Below, one piece after another: positions 13,413-47,020 of a stretch of DNA of 64,000 bases. Both the position numbers and the translations under genes were made by a program. The DNA lies in contig QGFZ01000002.1 in NCBI GenBank assembly GCA_003149065.1, positions 248,001 through 312,000 of the forward strand. Reading direction: 5' to 3'. Position 1 is the first letter of the stretch. Each line of letters opens with the position of its first letter. Below the pieces are notes generated by a model, which searched no databases, was not told the origin of the DNA, and saw nothing but the letters and a program-made list of their open reading frames with translations. Source of the stretch: Ruminococcaceae bacterium R-25 (GTDB lineage Bacteria > Bacillota > Clostridia > Saccharofermentanales > Saccharofermentanaceae).

Positions 13413-14900
13413 ATGAAAAAGGTAATCATTGTCGGAGGCGGAATCTCCGGAATGACTGCAGGTATTATCCTGCAAAACTCAGGATTTGAGACAGAGATCT
13501 ATGAGAAGAATCCTGTTGCAGGCGGCGAGCTTACGGGCTGGAAAAGAGACGGCGTTTACATCGACAACTGCATCAACTATCTTATGTGCAGCAAAAAAGG
13601 CAGTGCCATGAACGAGTTGTGGCACGAGATCGGAATGCTCGACGACAGCGTAAAGATGTATTCAAAAGACTACTTCTTCAAATATCAGGGACACGGCGGA
13701 GAGATCACCTATTGGAGAGATAAAGAGAGAACAAAGCGCGAGATGCTTGAGCTCTCACCTGAAGATAAGGATGTAATCGAAAAGTTTTTCGAGAACGTCA
13801 CAAGAGCCGAGAGCATGATAATGCCTATCGACAAGCCGATGGACAAGATGGGCCCGAGAGATTTCATGAAGCTCGGCGACTTCGTAAAGAATGTTCCTGC
13901 AGCGCAGAAGGCTTATAAGGGTGTCAGTGTAAAGGATCTCGCTGACAGCTTCAAGAGCCCTGTTTTAAGAAGCTCATGCATGCTCACACACCCTGAAATG
14001 ACACAGGCATATTCATTCGTTATGTCCTATGCGATGGTTACATCCGGCAGCGGCGACATTCCTGAGGGCGGCTCACTCGCAGCAGCAATGAGGATCGCAA
14101 ACAGATACCAGGAAAAGGGCGGCAAGCTCCACTTAAACGCACCCGTTAAGAGCATTAAGCTTAACGGCAAAGTTGCTGAGGGAATCGTCCTTGAAGACGG
14201 CACCGAAGTTAAGGCAGATTATGTAATCTGCGCAACCGATGCCAACCACACATTCACAAATCTTCTTCCCGAAAAATACATGCCGAAGAAGCTCAAGAAG
14301 TGCTTTGACGATAAGGAACACTTCTCCGTATTCAGCAAGTATCACGCAGCTTTCATCGTCGACGGCAAGATGAATGTCGATCCCGATACGACTTGCTGGG
14401 AGAGCGACGGAATCAAGGTCTGGGACAGAGAGATCAAGGACATCGGTTTCATCTGCTACGACTACGATCCGGCACTTACACCTGAAGGCAAGACGAGTAT
14501 TCAGATGAAGCTTTTCCAGTACGGCAAGGAAGTCGACAACTGGTTCGAGCTCGCAAAAGATCCCGAAAAGTATGAAGCAAAGAAAATGGAAGTCGCAAAT
14601 GCTCTCATGGCAGAGGTCGAAAAGCAGTTCCCTGAAACAAAGGGCAAGATCAGGATCTTGGACGTATGGACTCCTGTTACATATGCCAAGCATTGCAACG
14701 CATACAGAGGCGCATATATGGCCTTCGTTGCAGACAAGGATACGAAAACAGTTACCACACCCGGCGTCGTTAAGGGCTTAAAGAATGTCTTCCTCGCAGG
14801 CCAGTGGCTCATGGGTTCAGGCGGACTTCCGCCGGCAACCGCGCAGGGCAAATATGCCGCATGGCGTATCTGCAAAAAAGAAGGCGTGGAGTGCAAGTAA
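13413..14900 (+). CDS. CrtI/phytoene-desaturase-like FAD-dependent oxidoreductase
   Basis: A 495-residue protein with an N-terminal dinucleotide-binding motif VGGGISGMTAG followed by the acidic strand end ETEIYEKN, and a C-terminal FAD motif GLKNVFLAGQWLMGSGGLPPA. This is the layout of the phytoene desaturase/carotenoid isomerase/amine oxidase superfamily, which acts on lipid-like or amine substrates using FAD. No carotenoid genes are near, so a carotenoid role is unsupported. AGGGGGG precedes the ATG. A hairpin terminator follows, so it is probably a single-gene transcript. Confidence 0.85.
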   Translation: MKKVIIVGGGISGMTAGIILQNSGFETEIYEKNPVAGGELTGWKRDGVYIDNCINYLMCSKKGSAMNELWHEIGMLDDSVKMYSKDYFFKYQGHGGEITYWRDKERTKREMLELSPEDKDVIEKFFENVTRAESMIMPIDKPMDKMGPRDFMKLGDFVKNVPAAQKAYKGVSVKDLADSFKSPVLRSSCMLTHPEMTQAYSFVMSYAMVTSGSGDIPEGGSLAAAMRIANRYQEKGGKLHLNAPVKSIKLNGKVAEGIVLEDGTEVKADYVICATDANHTFTNLLPEKYMPKKLKKCFDDKEHFSVFSKYHAAFIVDGKMNVDPDTTCWESDGIKVWDREIKDIGFICYDYDPALTPEGKTSIQMKLFQYGKEVDNWFELAKDPEKYEAKKMEVANALMAEVEKQFPETKGKIRILDVWTPVTYAKHCNAYRGAYMAFVADKDTKTVTTPGVVKGLKNVFLAGQWLMGSGGLPPATAQGKYAAWRICKKEGVECK

Positions 14901-14918
14901 ACTAAATATAAATCAAAG

Positions 14919-14948
14919 GGCTGTCTCAAATATGAGGCAGCTTTTTTA
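14919..14948 (+). terminator. terminator of the CrtI-like gene
   Basis: GCTG-t-CTC pairs with GAG-g-CAGC around a five-base loop, followed by six T residues. Confidence 0.8.
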
Positions 14949-15110
14949 TTCTTGGCGAAATTGATATATTACAGTTGTTGGGATGTAATATGTGATAATG
15001 GATTTTATATCCTTGGCAAATAAAATCAGCAGGAAAATAGACTAAGATATATCGGAGTTTGTGAAATTTTCAGGCGTTTTTCAGGCCTTCAAATGCACAA
15101 GTCAACTTGC
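14949..15110. other. gene-free spacer with an 8-bp inverted repeat
   Basis: No gene is seen. ATATTACA (14966-14973) and TGTAATAT (14984-14991) form a perfect inverted repeat around ten bases. A related word, CTTGGC(G/A)AA, appears at about 14951 and 15012. The hairpin array begins right after this stretch. Confidence 0.4.
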
Positions 15111-15414
15111 GACCTTGCATCACGAGTTCAACTGTATCGAAAACCTCGAAAAAAGCCTCCATTTCGATACACGGTCGAACTTTGGTGTATCGAAAACCAT
15201 GAAGAATACCCCGTTTTCGATACAAATTCGCTTTTTTGTATCGAAAATCTCATAAAAGTGCCCCTTGTAGATACAGCATTGAAGTCCGTTGTATCGAAAA
15301 CACATATAAATCAAGCGTTTTCGATACAGGATCACACATTTATATCTAAAACCTCGAAAGTACCCAATTTCGATACAAATACAAGTTTGTCGTGCGGATG
15401 TGTTAGCGCGTTAT
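15111..15414. repeat. hairpin array, copy 1 (TGTATCGAAA / TTTCGATACA, five units)
   Basis: Left arms begin at 15133, 15186, 15237, 15290 and about 15341 (spacing 51-53 bp). Each faces a right arm at 15162, 15214, 15265, 15317 and 15368. Stems are 10-12 bp where intact, with loops of 15-19 nt of differing sequence. Unit 3 has a decayed right arm (only GATACA still matches) and unit 5 a decayed left arm. The element starts at GACCTTG and ends at GTGTTAGCGCGTTAT, and recurs at 18.5 kb. Open frames across it shift with the unit spacing and are not credible genes. Bases 15415-15538 hold only the leader of the next gene. Confidence 0.9.
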
Positions 15415-15538
15415 ATCATGAATTGAATGAACTAAATGAGGTAAGGATGAGCAGGCACATGTGTTTGTCTTTGCTGTTTTGGACTTCTAACTAATTACGA
15501 TAAAATGAAACCATACTGCTTATCACGGGGTGTGGTCT

Positions 15539-17362
15539 ATGAAGCCTTCATTTAAAGAGAGATTAGCTTACTGGTTCGATTCGCGTATGTCTAAAGGTAC
15601 TTCGGACCTTATCAGACTGCTTGCGATAGTATCTGTTCTGGGCATTGCCCTGATCACGGTTCTGCTCGTTGCTTTCGGTTACAGCGAAGCAAATGGTGTC
15701 GATGTTTTCTGGGACAGCTTTGCAACGATAATCAATGCGTGGATGCCGTACTATTCTGACGGTGACGGCTCTATCGGATATCTCGTCATAATGGCAATCG
15801 CTGCCATCATCGGCCTTCTCATTACCAGCGTCCTCATCGGTATCTTCACGACAGCGATCGAGGAATATATCGAAGGCCTCAAAGAAAGCAAATCCACTGT
15901 TCTCGAAAAGGATCACATCATAATCCTGGGCTTTACTCCCGGTGAATATACCCTGATCAAGCAGGTCGTTCTCGCGGCCGGCACCAAGAAGCGCACCATC
16001 GTTATCGGCAGTGATACGAGCAGCGAGGAAATGCGCGAAGCAGTTTACGACAATATCGATGTGCCGAAGAACGTTAAGATCATTTTCCGCACGATCGATA
16101 TTTTCGATCCCCAGTCAATCGAGAAGGTCTCGCCCGCAACCAGCAGGCACATTCTCATAAGTCCGATGGACGACAAGAAGACCATCAAGGTGCTCCTTGC
16201 AGTCTCGCTCCTGATCAACAGCACAGACAACGAGAACGTCCGTGTGAGCGCCCTTGTATCCAAGAACGAATACCAGTTCCCTGAAACGATCGCCGCAAGG
16301 CACAACGTCACTACGATACAGATGCATAACACGATCGCGAAAATGCTGGCCATCTCCTGCACGCAGACAGGCCTTTCCGATGCGTTCAGAGAAGTGTTCG
16401 CATTCGACGGCAGCGAGTTCTATTCGACCGTGATCAAAGATGCTGCAGGTCTCACATATGAAGAACTTACATTAAGACTCGATAAAGCAGTTCCGGTCGG
16501 ATTGATCCACGACGGCAATGTCATGGTAAATCCCGGCAAGTCCGTAAAGATAGAAGAGGGCGACCGCATAATCGTATTTGCCGAAGAACGCGATTCCGGC
16601 ATCCTTGCGAACGTTGACTGCAAGGATCTTCCCACGGCGAAGTATGAATCTTCCGATACAGACAGAACGGTTGCAATAATCGGATACAATTCCTCATTCA
16701 GGACTGTCTACGAAGAGATGCTCGACGAGATCTCAGAAGTTATCGTTGCAGATATCCCGGCTTCCAAGAAAGATGCAGTAATGAAGGTTGCCTCAAGGTT
16801 TAAGGACCGCAAGATCACCATCCTGGAAGACGACATCGACGAAGTCGAGAACATGACGAAACTCGCACAGGAAGTCCATCACATCGTTCTCTTAAGCGAT
16901 TACACGATGGATAATGAAGATGCCGATATCCAGAGCATCTTCCGCATCATGAGATTCAGGGACATCCGTACAAAACTCGGTCTCAAGTTCAACATCACCG
17001 CCGAAATGTGCAAGAAGGCTAACCTCAACCTTATCAGGGAAGACGAGCACATGGACTATGTTGCGTCTTCGAACATGTCCTCGCTCTTCCTCGCCCAGCT
17101 CTCCGAAAACTATGAACTCACACCTCTCATCAAAGAGATCCTGGACAATGACGGTAACGAGCTCCGTCTCAAGAAAGCCAAGGACTTCGGCATCAACGGT
17201 ATCCACACGACACAGCAGCTTAGAAGCATCGCGCTGTCCAACAACTACACTTTGTTAGGTTACCTGCGTCACGACACATACGAGAGCACCTTCAATCCTA
17301 ATCTCACAGATGAGATCGATCTTGACGGCGAAGACAGCCTTATCGTGCTGGCGGAGAATTAA
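15539..17362 (+). CDS. CASTOR/POLLUX-like ion channel with RCK-type domains
   Basis: A 607-residue protein with two N-terminal membrane helices (about 24-46 and 82-105) and a long cytoplasmic part. The opening FKERLAYWFDSRMSKGTSDLI and the junction IEEYIEGLKESKSTVLEKDHIIILGF are typical of the CASTOR/POLLUX/SYM8 family, whose cytoplasmic Rossmann/TrkA-like units gate cation flow. A TrkA-C-like stretch (TYEELTLRLDKAVPVGLIHDG) and a second nucleotide-binding fold (VAIIGYNSSFRTVYEEM) follow. No TVGYG potassium filter is present, as usual for this family. GGGG precedes the ATG. The gene sits between two copies of a hairpin array; a distant paralogue lies at 36-38 kb on the other strand. Confidence 0.85.
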   Translation: MKPSFKERLAYWFDSRMSKGTSDLIRLLAIVSVLGIALITVLLVAFGYSEANGVDVFWDSFATIINAWMPYYSDGDGSIGYLVIMAIAAIIGLLITSVLIGIFTTAIEEYIEGLKESKSTVLEKDHIIILGFTPGEYTLIKQVVLAAGTKKRTIVIGSDTSSEEMREAVYDNIDVPKNVKIIFRTIDIFDPQSIEKVSPATSRHILISPMDDKKTIKVLLAVSLLINSTDNENVRVSALVSKNEYQFPETIAARHNVTTIQMHNTIAKMLAISCTQTGLSDAFREVFAFDGSEFYSTVIKDAAGLTYEELTLRLDKAVPVGLIHDGNVMVNPGKSVKIEEGDRIIVFAEERDSGILANVDCKDLPTAKYESSDTDRTVAIIGYNSSFRTVYEEMLDEISEVIVADIPASKKDAVMKVASRFKDRKITILEDDIDEVENMTKLAQEVHHIVLLSDYTMDNEDADIQSIFRIMRFRDIRTKLGLKFNITAEMCKKANLNLIREDEHMDYVASSNMSSLFLAQLSENYELTPLIKEILDNDGNELRLKKAKDFGINGIHTTQQLRSIALSNNYTLLGYLRHDTYESTFNPNLTDEIDLDGEDSLIVLAEN

Positions 17363-17379
17363 TTACTATCCAAAACAAA

Positions 17380-17880
17380 ATGAACTACCGCAAAGCCAAC
17401 AACGATGAACATAACATTATCTGCGAACAGGTCCGGAGCCGGTCTGTTCTGACTGTATGCTTGTCGGCACCGGTTATACCGGTTGTTGTTCTTGTAGCGT
17501 GCCTTTCGGTCAACATGATGATAAGGCAGAGATACGACAAAGCAACTTTTGTTATCTCAACATTGATGATGGTGTTTTTCGTTGTTGCTGTGGCGATAGC
17601 CATGATCGCGCTCATGAGCGGTTTTATTAAGCGCTTCTCATGCATCAACAAACGAAACTATTCTGTTGCCGACTGTGTAGTGGCAGGCAAAAATCTGCGG
17701 ATAAACCCAAAACACAATCACAGTTTTGTTACCGTAAGTTTACCTGACGGAAATACGCAGACGGCCATGGTTTCGCAAAAAGTTTACTCTCTGGCCCAAA
17801 ACGGTAAACAAGCCTTGCTCATAAAGTACGATGAACCTGATGGAAAGGAAAAGCTTCCGTTTGAGATAGCGGTTTTATGA
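17380..17880 (+). CDS. small two-helix membrane protein, function unknown
   Basis: 166 residues with two hydrophobic helices (about 22-48 and 56-85) and a C-terminal hydrophilic domain of about 75 residues ending in LPFEIAVL. I recognise no family. It starts 17 bp after the channel gene without an obvious ribosome site, suggesting coupling, and its stop region overlaps the possible upstream start of the next gene. Its position makes it a candidate accessory protein of the channel, but this is only context. Confidence 0.6.
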   Translation: MNYRKANNDEHNIICEQVRSRSVLTVCLSAPVIPVVVLVACLSVNMMIRQRYDKATFVISTLMMVFFVVAVAIAMIALMSGFIKRFSCINKRNYSVADCVVAGKNLRINPKHNHSFVTVSLPDGNTQTAMVSQKVYSLAQNGKQALLIKYDEPDGKEKLPFEIAVL

Positions 17881-17909
17881 ATACGGAATCATTAAGAAAG
17901 GAACCACGC

Positions 17910-18440
17910 ATGCAGTATATTACTGAAGAAACTGAACAGAACGGCATTGCAGTGCTTTTGAAACTTGTTGACGGTGATTCGATTCTGGACACGTATCCGG
18001 TTGAATATCCCGAATGCGGTTTTGGAGGTTGTGATCTTATTCAAAGTCCGGATAATAGCATGGTGGTTTTGGCTTTGTTTTCCGGTCAATCCGATTGTGC
18101 TTTCAAGGTGTTTAAAGCAAGTGAAGGCAAGCTTGTTCTGGTGTTTGAGGAAGGCTATTCCTTCGGCGAAGCAATTTACATGTGGAGCAGTGACGGAAGG
18201 AAGTTATATCAAATAGTTGATTCATATCTGTATATGGATGTTTCAGATTTTGAGACGCATCGTGTCGGGACGCTGAATATTTTCGATGTCTTCGAAAACA
18301 GCAAGGAGACAAAAGAGATCACATACGATTTCGCCGGTTTTGATCTGGATGAACTGGATTTCTTCAGAATGACATTTACCATAATTGACGGCAAATCTTG
18401 TGTCGTCATGCCAAATGACGTGATAATGAGCATTGAGTGA
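17910..18440 (+). CDS. hypothetical soluble protein
   Basis: 176 residues, acidic, rich in beta-strand-like segments (NSMVVLALFSG, KLVLVFEEGYSFGEAIYMW), without signal or membrane helix. The ATG here has AAAGGA eight bases before it; an in-frame ATG eleven codons earlier overlaps the previous stop in an ATGA and could also be used. The pattern of short strands with Gly/Asp turns could be a beta-propeller fragment or immunity-like protein, but no assignment is supported. It is the last gene of the channel group, followed directly by the second hairpin array. Confidence 0.6.
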   Translation: MQYITEETEQNGIAVLLKLVDGDSILDTYPVEYPECGFGGCDLIQSPDNSMVVLALFSGQSDCAFKVFKASEGKLVLVFEEGYSFGEAIYMWSSDGRKLYQIVDSYLYMDVSDFETHRVGTLNIFDVFENSKETKEITYDFAGFDLDELDFFRMTFTIIDGKSCVVMPNDVIMSIE

Positions 18441-18510
18441 TGAAAAAGGGCGGAATAATCAGCCATGGATAATTTAAAATATTTTGTAAAAGAATATAAG
18501 AGCAACAGTT

Positions 18511-18814
18511 GACCTTGTATCACGAGTTCAACTGTATCGAAAACCTCGAAAAAAGCCTCCATTTCGATACAAGCTCGCACTTTGGTGTATCGAAAACCAT
18601 GAAGAACCCCCTGTTTTCGATACAATTTCGCGTTTTTGTATCGAAAGCACATAGAAAAGTGAGAGTTTTCGATACAGCATCTCACTTCATTGTATCGAAA
18701 ACACATATAAATCAAGCGTTTTCGATACAGGATCACACATTTATATCTAAAACCTCGAAAGTACCCAGTTTCGATACAAATTCAAGTTTGCCGTGCGGAT
18801 GTGTTAGCGCGTTA
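18511..18814. repeat. hairpin array, copy 2 (TGTATCGAAA / TTTCGATACA, five units)
   Basis: Collinear with the array at 15.1 kb, with one single-base length difference. Left arms at 18533, 18586, 18637, 18691 and about 18742; right arms at 18562, 18614, 18667, 18718 and 18769. Units 1 and 4 are identical to copy 1. Unit 3 here has an intact 10-bp stem, unlike copy 1. AAGTGAGA and TCTCACTT form a further inverted repeat spanning the right arm of unit 3. Differences between the copies fall mostly in loops and spacers. No gene is present from 18441 to 18887. Confidence 0.9.
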
Positions 18815-18851
18815 TTTCCTGAATAAAACCGCACCAAACCAATATCCTTAT

Positions 18852-18881
18852 CAAAAATCAGGGGGCTTTTTTAAAGCCCCC
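18852..18881 (-). terminator. terminator of the cNMP-binding protein gene
   Basis: GGGGGCTTT and AAAGCCCCC form a 9-bp stem; on the minus strand it is followed by TGATTTTTGAT just past the stop codon. Confidence 0.75.
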
Positions 18882-18887
18882 TTGATC

Positions 18888-19790
18888 TTATTTCTTGTTG
18901 TATGTTTCCGTGATCTCTTTACAGGTGTTGATGACATCGATGTTAAGGACTCTTAAGCGGTATGAGAGCTGCTTTAAGATCAGTTCGATCTTAACAGGGC
19001 AGGAGAGGAAAACGGGTTCCAGATACTCTGGCGTAATGAGCTCGATATAGGTGTCATCGGATTCGGAAACGGCAGTGAGATCTCTTGCAGCGCCTGTCAG
19101 CATTCCGAGTTCGCCGAACAATGACACGGGCTGAAGTTCAGATATCTTTTCGCCGTCCTTGTTATACATTCCGACGATGCCGCTTCTTAAGATATACATG
19201 CAGTTTTCGACTGCGCCTTCCTCGTAGATGATGGAATTAGTTGCGAAATTTTGGATGTCGCCGGTTCCTTCGTCTGTGATCGCTTCGAAAGCTTCGTTGA
19301 TCGCTTCTGCACTCGGAGGAGTAACGTATTCCTTGTTGCTCTCATACATGTCGACCTGCTTCTTGATCCTGGAGAACAATGACTTTTTCTTGCTGGCTTC
19401 AGCCTCTTTGACTTCCTTTAAAAGTGCCTTGGCTTCGTTATAGTCGTTGGTCATGGCCTGGACTCTTCTGCCCAGGTGCTGCATGAGCTCCAAGATCTGG
19501 TCGGGATTTTCCTGGAAATATAAGGTCAGGTCATCTTTGGGAATCTCGATTACCCTTACATTGCCGACTGCAACGATGGTTGCGTTTCTCGGATATGAAT
19601 CGATGATTGCCATCTCGCCGAAATATTCGCCTGTATCAAGGAGCGCGATGCGGAACGGTTCCTGGTCCTTTTTGTCCCAGTCTGCATAGACGCTTGCTTT
19701 TCCCTCTAAGAGACGGAAGAAGCTGTCTCCGATATCACCCTCTTTGACAATTACCTCGCCCTTGTAGAAAGACTTCTCAACTACGCTCAT
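18888..19790 (-). CDS. protein with two cyclic-nucleotide-binding domains
   Basis: A 300-residue cytoplasmic protein with two cNMP-binding (CAP-like) beta-rolls, about 5-115 and 185-295. The first has GDSFFRLLEGKASVY and GEYFGEMAIIDSYPRNATIVA, the second NCMYILRSGIVGMY and VSLFGELGMLTGAARDLTAV. The phosphate-binding FGE-(6)-R-(A/D) pattern is present in both, so each may bind a cyclic nucleotide. A charged linker of about 60 residues joins them. There is no DNA-binding or catalytic domain, so it is a sensor or adaptor. GGGAGGAG lies ahead of the chosen ATG; an ATG seven codons earlier overlaps that ribosome site. Confidence 0.85.
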   Translation of the reverse strand: MSVVEKSFYKGEVIVKEGDIGDSFFRLLEGKASVYADWDKKDQEPFRIALLDTGEYFGEMAIIDSYPRNATIVAVGNVRVIEIPKDDLTLYFQENPDQILELMQHLGRRVQAMTNDYNEAKALLKEVKEAEASKKKSLFSRIKKQVDMYESNKEYVTPPSAEAINEAFEAITDEGTGDIQNFATNSIIYEEGAVENCMYILRSGIVGMYNKDGEKISELQPVSLFGELGMLTGAARDLTAVSESDDTYIELITPEYLEPVFLSCPVKIELILKQLSYRLRVLNIDVINTCKEITETYNKK

Positions 19791-46801: not shown

Positions 46802-46924
46802 GCAGGGTCCCGGATTCAACTTTTTGTCACCAGTTTTCGGATTTGCGTGAAACAAAATGTGAAACAGCTTCACTTGGTGGCGATTCTCTTGCAAATAAAA
46901 GTGAAATAACCGTGTTGCTCGTTT

Positions 46925-47014
46925 TGTAGACGATTTTTCATTTTTCGTCGACAGAATGTGCAAAATTGCGTTGATTTGCTCATTTTGTAGACGATTTTCC
47001 GATTTTCGTCTACA
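46925..47014. repeat. hairpin array TGTAGACGA / TCGTCTACA
   Basis: Two tandem units 61 bp apart: 46925-46933 with 46945-46953 (one mismatch), and 46986-46994 with 47006-47014 (perfect). Loops are 11 nt. The unit starts with TGCTC(G/A)TTTTGTAGACGA and ends with an AATGT word. Between the two arrays lies a GTGAA/TTCAC hairpin (46859-46873). Confidence 0.85.
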
Positions 47015-47020
47015 TAATGT

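Follow-up and report, generated by a model that had tools for sequence, protein, structure and literature searches.

The analysed window is a 64,000-nucleotide stretch of contig QGFZ01000002.1 from Ruminococcaceae bacterium R-25. A Castor/Pollux-like channel gene (15530–17362, match to Castor_Poll_mid) closes a gap that opens after a terminator-like hairpin, as originally predicted, and this gap holds a series of inverted-repeat units (array 1, Table 1). Each unit is built of TGTATCGAAA, 19 bases and TTTCGATACA, 39 bp in all. The five units first described are all present, at steps of 53, 51 and 53 bp and then 49 bp to a worn fifth unit, so that the step range first given (51–53 bp) holds for the first four units only; the array itself starts at 15133 and not at 15111, since 15111–15132 lies outside any unit. 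Exact complementarity of the 10-bp arms, originally ascribed to every unit, is found in three of the five (units 1, 2 and 4), while units 3 and 5 have two letters altered in one arm each.

The window contains further arrays of the same kind, one of them (array 2) in a block matching array 1 and another, with an unrelated word, between convergent genes. Arrays 1 and 2 both lie outside predicted genes. Our detector of inverted-repeat units found five chains in the window and none in each of five shuffles; with a rule for similar words added, the count was again five, and none in each of ten shuffles. Within the sequence of the arm TGTATCGAAA there is no inner stem and no REP-type tag. The words, of 10–12 bp, alternate in direction and both loops and spacers vary, which separates the array from CRISPR arrays, whose direct repeats of 24–48 bp are nearly identical and whose spacers are unique, in agreement with the first reading of the locus.

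Table 1. Arrays, units and associated features in the window (coordinates counted from its first nucleotide).
Feature	Position	Strand	Remarks
Terminator-like hairpin, upstream of array 1	14915–14946	+	
Shared block at array 1	15024–15435	+	95% identity over 416 bp to the C3:10637 copy; ends approximate; less shared with other copies
Array 1, unit 1	15133–15171	+	Arms TGTATCGAAA / TTTCGATACA
Array 1, unit 2	15186–15224	+	
Array 1, unit 3	15237–15275	+	Right arm altered to TGTAGATACA, without compensation
Array 1, unit 4	15290–15328	+	Closes the 196-bp core (15133–15328)
Array 1, unit 5	15339–15377	+	Worn; left arm TATATCTAAA
Array 2, block matching array 1	18511–18824	+	90% over 315 aligned bp
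Array 2, unit 1	18533–18571	+	
Array 2, unit 2	18586–18624	+	
Array 2, unit 3	18637–18676	+	40 bp
Array 2, unit 4	18691–18729	+	
Array 2, fifth unit	18740–18778	+	Worn
Third array, word unrelated to TGTATCGAAA	46682–46770	+	TTTTACACCA..TGGTGTAAAA; two 39-bp units, step 50
Unit pair	46922–47019	+	TTTTGTAGACGA..TCGTCTACA; step 61; first unit with one altered arm

Array 1, first noted as a single array, belongs to a module dispersed through the genome. In the window's genome the pair TGTATCGAAA-N(10–24)-TTTCGATACA has 51 occurrences, against none for the reversed control, and the single word TGTATCGAAA occurs 68 + 72 times, against 1 + 1 for its control. We counted 19 loci with this word, 15 of them with a full four-unit core (194–197 bp across the 15 copies); the other four are degenerate (C1:235944), partial (C2:380368 and C2:384343) or a single unit (C2:328287). 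BLAST searches with the array recover four-unit cores with identities as low as 69%, matching all four units in one piece at 14 of the 15 core loci and in two pieces at the other. Recent copies also have flanks in common with array 1, over 416 bp at C3:10637, 377 bp at C1:481011 and 315 bp in array 2. A 133-codon open frame runs across array 1 and might speak for a decayed gene, but it has no Pfam match, arrays 1 and 2 are outside predicted genes and the pair is found 51 times against none in the control; the genome copies already refute a decayed gene or a chance repeat, to which we assign next to no probability, and here the original prediction stands.

Outside this genome the exact TGTATCGAAA pair was found in only one other of the 115 genomes of the family (2 in all). 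In that genome, G067, a lone unit lies within a 532-bp segment that is 93% identical across the two species. The segment (L031:2000–2530, L035:2514–3045) also carries a 106-aa open frame, and one edge falls at the solitary TGTATCGAAA unit. Among public genomes the exact pair occurred in 12 stretches, once in each (one is RUG11004 and the rest are other taxa), so that none of these 12 has more than one pair, in a collection that may lack entries close to the window's genome. There was no match to 15000–15440 in the phage and plasmid collections and no exact TGTATCGAAA pair in the viral contigs, and a phage or plasmid origin of array 1 was dropped on these grounds. Rfam gave no match for 14800–19000 of the window, nor for L286, L087 and L028.

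The original proposal to look for the stem word in related Clostridia was taken up, and relatives contain arrays built in the same way from different words. When three mismatches were allowed, 19 of the 85 genomes of the genus matched, many of them by chance, since the matches are mostly single and eight genomes match once in the control. Arrays with words such as TGTGTCGAAA, TCTATCGAAA and TGTATCGGAA were found in G089, G033 and G018. One G089 array even runs through successive different words, the arms of each unit matching exactly or with one mismatch; complementarity across words is partly a matter of ascertainment, because the families were found by requiring complementary arms. In L152 (G009:C10:62941–63276) the word AAGCCCACTT gives way in mid-array to ATACCTACCT, the build being retained. 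Units with the word TTACGKACTAA are 39 bp long in 78 of 86 cases and follow one another at steps of mostly 73–74 bp, in 23 arrays of four (11), five (5), three (3) or two (4) units. Among 188 genomes of the order, 8 have TACGKACTAA pairs, and each of the 8 belongs to the window's genus; a wider gap range gives 9 of the 85 genus genomes. A two-unit TTACGKACTAA arrangement with centres 178–181 bp apart (L295, L291 and L302) is common to three species.

Arrays of sister species sometimes occupy the same gene gap, with other words. After argG, arrays were recognised by eye at 7 of 29 loci, with five words (that of G009 being a single unit), and none at 21 of 29, the detector flagging 4; as 21 of these gaps have no array by eye, no array in the argG gap is essential. 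In the gap before hisS the detector flagged 5 of 30, each with another word (G089, G014, G017, G051 and, at a step of 40, G082). At L186, the argG gap of G070, the place taken by arrays in other species is occupied by an open frame resembling by eye an IS200-type transposase.

In a word-blind scan, which covered 2.064 Mb of sequence drawn from 16 genomes, adjacent inverted-repeat units were detected at 37 loci, compared with 3 pairs in total from one shuffle per sample. Steps of 46–80 bp were found at 30 of them (7 were outside that range), and these steps are bunched near five, six and seven helical turns, 26 of the 30 falling at 50–53 bp (9 loci), 61–64 bp (7) or 72–74 bp (10) and the outliers being 57.5, 66, 67.5 and 76.5 bp. 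For the 30 loci, which include one coding locus at a sample edge and of low complexity by eye (G026:2074), the step vector length at 10.5 bp is 0.66 with a mean phase of -0.06 bp, i.e. whole turns, and the best-fitting period is 10.9 bp (0.68). Taking one step value per word (26 words, listed by hand and, like the 37 loci, still including hairpin-like repeats such as CGGCTATAGCCG), the vector length rises to 0.84 at 10.5 bp and 0.87 at 11 bp, though p-values for the steps are optimistic (too small) because loci and words are related.

The A/T runs are phased as well. In the 15 cores the power of AAA/TTT peaks at 10.4–10.5 bp, with a value of 21.5, compared with 1.5 when shuffled and 8.1 with the arms masked. 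The corresponding power is 14.4 in 17 other-word arrays (chosen from the detected ones) and 8.7 in 15 TTACGKACTAA arrays, against 2.2 in 211 array-free intergenic stretches and 1.2–1.5 in shuffles at 10.5 bp. A whole-turn step alone feeds this signal, yet masked arms and three different steps peak alike. With run-preserving shuffles, p ≤ 0.01 was reached by 15/15 cores, 15/17 other-word arrays and 3/15 TTACGKACTAA arrays. Phasing is weak in the last of these (7/15 at p 0.05), absent from the third window array (p 0.46) and at p 0.08 in a G020 array, while the A/T runs of the window's family are phased within the 10.2–10.7 bp expected of curved DNA. A wedge model with assumed parameters gives an end-to-end/contour ratio of 0.53 for the window's family and 0.875 for the 211 controls. 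TTACGKACTAA arrays are predicted to curve little (0.80; 2/15 below the control 5% limit), and nine other arrays (of ten, one being too short) are mixed, at 0.66. By this model, strong curvature characterises the window's family and not every array. Array-free intergenic stretches from 17 samples have a slight 10.4-bp A/T periodicity of their own (2.2 vs 1.4 in shuffles).

Whether the arms act as a DNA word or as an RNA stem, the two readings that the original prediction had left side by side, can be judged from the changes they have undergone. The 15 cores (60 units, 120 arms) retain the exact word in 107 arms and complementary arms in 48 of 60 units; in the 12 units with an altered arm, 4 of which represent one inherited change in related copies, the two arms match in none. 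A covariation count in the cores found two-sided change in 0 of 40 pairs, a test of little power because 31 of the 40 never vary. The TTACGKACTAA arms provide a stronger test: in 80 distinct units the variable letter in the two arms reads TT 32, GT 22, TG 17 and GG 9 times, independent between arms (Fisher p 0.63); the two arms share 4 of 86 other departures. Identity across the 15 cores is 98% in arms, 55% in loops and 53% in spacers; among the diverged pairs of cores (41 of 105, with loops less than 50% identical) the values are 97%, 43% and 38%. The arms are preserved singly, as words. Half-sites kept word by word at a helical spacing, with a best period of 10.9–11.0 bp, are what an array of half-sites would present. 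As for RNA, the array folds well (z -7.5 vs shuffles), because inverted repeats must fold so, and the minimum-energy fold joins arms over the middle spacer and between units, not within a unit. The covariance analysis originally put forward gave no compensated change, the independence of the TTACGKACTAA arms being the stronger evidence, and the opposed half-sites are the part of the original alternative that we favour.

Of the word-blind loci with phased steps, 25/26 are outside predicted genes, 11 in convergent, 8 in co-directional and 6 in divergent gaps. The TGTATCGAAA and TTACGKACTAA arrays (n=33, a set overlapping with the former) divide into 13 convergent, 16 co-directional and 4 divergent cases. 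Convergent, co-directional and divergent gaps make up 11%, 56% and 33% of intergenic length, so that for the 33 arrays there is a convergent excess (p 3e-5) and a divergent deficit (p 0.005); the word-blind set shows no such deficit (6/25 divergent). One of 18 TGTATCGAAA arrays (L020) overlaps a predicted frame. A scan of 62 of the 66 flanking proteins, all but the four of L299, revealed no family in more than two of the 62, and a cognate gene adjoining the arrays is not supported. The Pfam listing for these 62 proteins, which covers 25 of 101 families, contains no cas family.

Some arrays can be followed between species. G067, G000 and G071 have one TTACGKACTAA array in common, flanked in all three by the same pair of convergent genes. 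It differs at 8/258 sites between G067 and G000, compared with 78/800 in the flanks (p 0.0003), and at 7/185 compared with 69/800 between G067 and G071 (p 0.03), the G071 copy being without one 73-bp period. A second common array differs at 10/217 sites between G067 and G000 and its flanks at 115/582 (p 1e-8); between G067 and G071 it is no better kept than the flanks (70/217 and 131/487), with changes in 3/44 arm positions and 67/173 loop and spacer positions of the G071 copy. In the comparison of G067 with G000, arms show no clear advantage in conservation over loops and spacers (3/131 vs 15/344, p 0.42). The conservation of the arrays is support and not proof, since they might also seem young through interspecies transfer.

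Whole modules have also been copied to new gene gaps. In G067 a 296-bp module is nearly identical at two sites, and a terminator together with its array is found at three. There was no match to the Y1 (RAYT) transposase in the window's genome, and this gene is absent from 12/16 array genomes (present in G008, G020, G024 and G051), in a search whose control gave matches in 5/14 named genomes. Aligned recent copies, whose ends are approximate, have no target duplication or terminal repeat that is clear by eye.

We give an even chance to the interpretation that array 1 belongs to a dispersed intergenic module, typically of four 39-bp paired half-sites on one helix face, that is read by a protein. 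Its basis in the sequence is the dispersal, the geometry, the phasing, the uncompensated arms, the context and the two arrays conserved between two species. A site consists of two opposed half-sites of 10–12 bp with the word outermost; by eye, most families have an A-run inward of the word, and a central A-run is frequent. The sites would face one side of the helix because neighbours lie about a whole number of turns apart (five here; six or seven in sister families), and in the window's family the phased A/T runs would curve the module. We infer a sequence-specific DNA-binding protein that would sit as dimers on the half-sites and might gather the module into a single curved nucleoprotein block where transcription units end, there perhaps holding supercoils or limiting read-through between adjacent genes. 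The modules are also copied whole into other gene gaps. Given the rule of steps of 5, 6 or 7 turns and independent half-sites, such an array can be searched for without knowing its word.

Double-stranded DNA read by a protein is favoured over RNA hairpins by the uncompensated arms, the whole-turn steps and the phased A/T runs. An array of hairpins with variable loops in an untranslated transcript would account for the complementarity of most units, the folding far better than shuffles and the good preservation of the common arrays between two species. We nevertheless consider it improbable: none of the altered units is compensated, the TTACGKACTAA arms are independent, the predicted fold does not pair each unit with itself, RNA has no need of near-whole-turn steps, Rfam has no match, and polarity is not strict, since 8 of 11 co-directional TGTATCGAAA arrays run along the gene direction and 3 opposite. 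Curved DNA alone, with phased A-runs bending the helix and the words incidental, would explain the strong phasing at about 10.5 bp and the predicted curvature of the window's family, but curvature does not need the words, which are the best-kept part (97% vs 38–43%), and it is weak in the TTACGKACTAA arrays; this explanation seems very improbable.

The main rival of the protein-read module is a selfish element, and both could hold. Its arms would be sites of a transposase or recombinase, a lineage-specific enzyme would produce the differences in word, and only matching copies would be copied, in the manner of REPINs and with no host function. Recombinase half-sites would be one candidate, on account of words like TTATC followed by an A-run. 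We hold a non-autonomous element of this kind to be possible but somewhat unlikely. It would fit the recent whole-module copies (array 1 with C3:10637, in part array 2 and others, and the 296-bp module of G067), the argG gap that has no array in 21/29 genomes and the second common array, whose conservation in G071 does not exceed that of its flanks; a bias to convergent gaps, too, is usual for such elements and is described for some regarded as parasitic (PMC3049150). Against it stand the absence of the Y1 transposase from most array genomes including the window's, the lack of a recurrent family among the flanking proteins and of a clear target duplication or terminal repeat in the aligned recent copies. 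Moreover, in the comparison of G067 with G000 both common arrays are less diverged than their flanks, unlike decaying insertions, and the second keeps its arms in G071 amid drift of loops and spacers.

Going beyond the protein-read module, one could see in these arrays a new class of chromosomal element within one genus, made of helix-phased, often curved arrays of paired half-sites. The geometry (39-bp site; 5, 6 or 7 turns; about four sites) would persist through replacement of the word, from species to species and even inside a single array, and each word would be read by a separate, rapidly evolving DNA-binding protein with the task of organising supercoils at the ends of genes. We think this unlikely. 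The protein-read module, if right, would mean modular bacterial DNA scaffolds spaced in whole helical turns, with a constant design and a word free to change, and would offer a natural test of joint change in a DNA-binding specificity and its many sites. It would also provide a possible chromosome-organising element in this group of bacteria, for which, to our knowledge, none is known.

The original prediction knew no named element like the array, and this remains so as regards Rfam and, judged by titles and abstract openings, the papers listed in literature searches, among which nothing is alike; BIME, REPIN and BOX elements are nevertheless of the same broad kind, and it is to BIME/REPIN and BOX that the arrays come closest. 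BIME/REP sequences are multi-copy intergenic clusters of short palindromic units, often between convergent genes (PMC1525189, PMC3733652), and the present arrays are likewise intergenic, multi-copy and clustered. REPs are, however, hairpins tagged GTAG or CGTC, whereas the array arms are without tag or inner stem, vary independently and are set at steps near whole helical turns. REPINs are dispersed pairs of opposed words, as are the units here, and sometimes form ordered tandem clusters, 71 and 110 bp being common inter-REP spacings in P. fluorescens (PMC3116915). They differ in their link to RAYT, most array genomes being without the Y1 gene, and in that four pairs in a row are common here (15/19 TGTATCGAAA loci, 11/23 TTACGKACTAA arrays). 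Membership in REP/RAYT was rejected, as the transposase is missing from the window's genome and the GTAG/CGTC tag from the arms. Streptococcal BOX elements are modular intergenic repeats with a tandem middle, over-represented between convergent genes (PMC3049150). Modularity, intergenic position and the bias to convergent gaps are common to both, but BOX has boxA/boxC end modules, terminal repeats and a predicted stem-loop, while the array units do not differ in kind and showed no end modules. In many prokaryotic genomes A/T runs recur with the helical period (PMC3940949), and pinning of plectonemes by intrinsic DNA curvature has been reported (PMC6301789). Phased A-tract and plectoneme-pinning DNA resembles the window's family in its helical-period A/T runs; the two abstracts do not mention paired-word arrays, and the phasing of TTACGKACTAA is weak. 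A hairpin-like CGGCTATAGCCG array with a 64-bp step in another genome (L105, G000:C1:176560–176860) is more REP-like than the present family.
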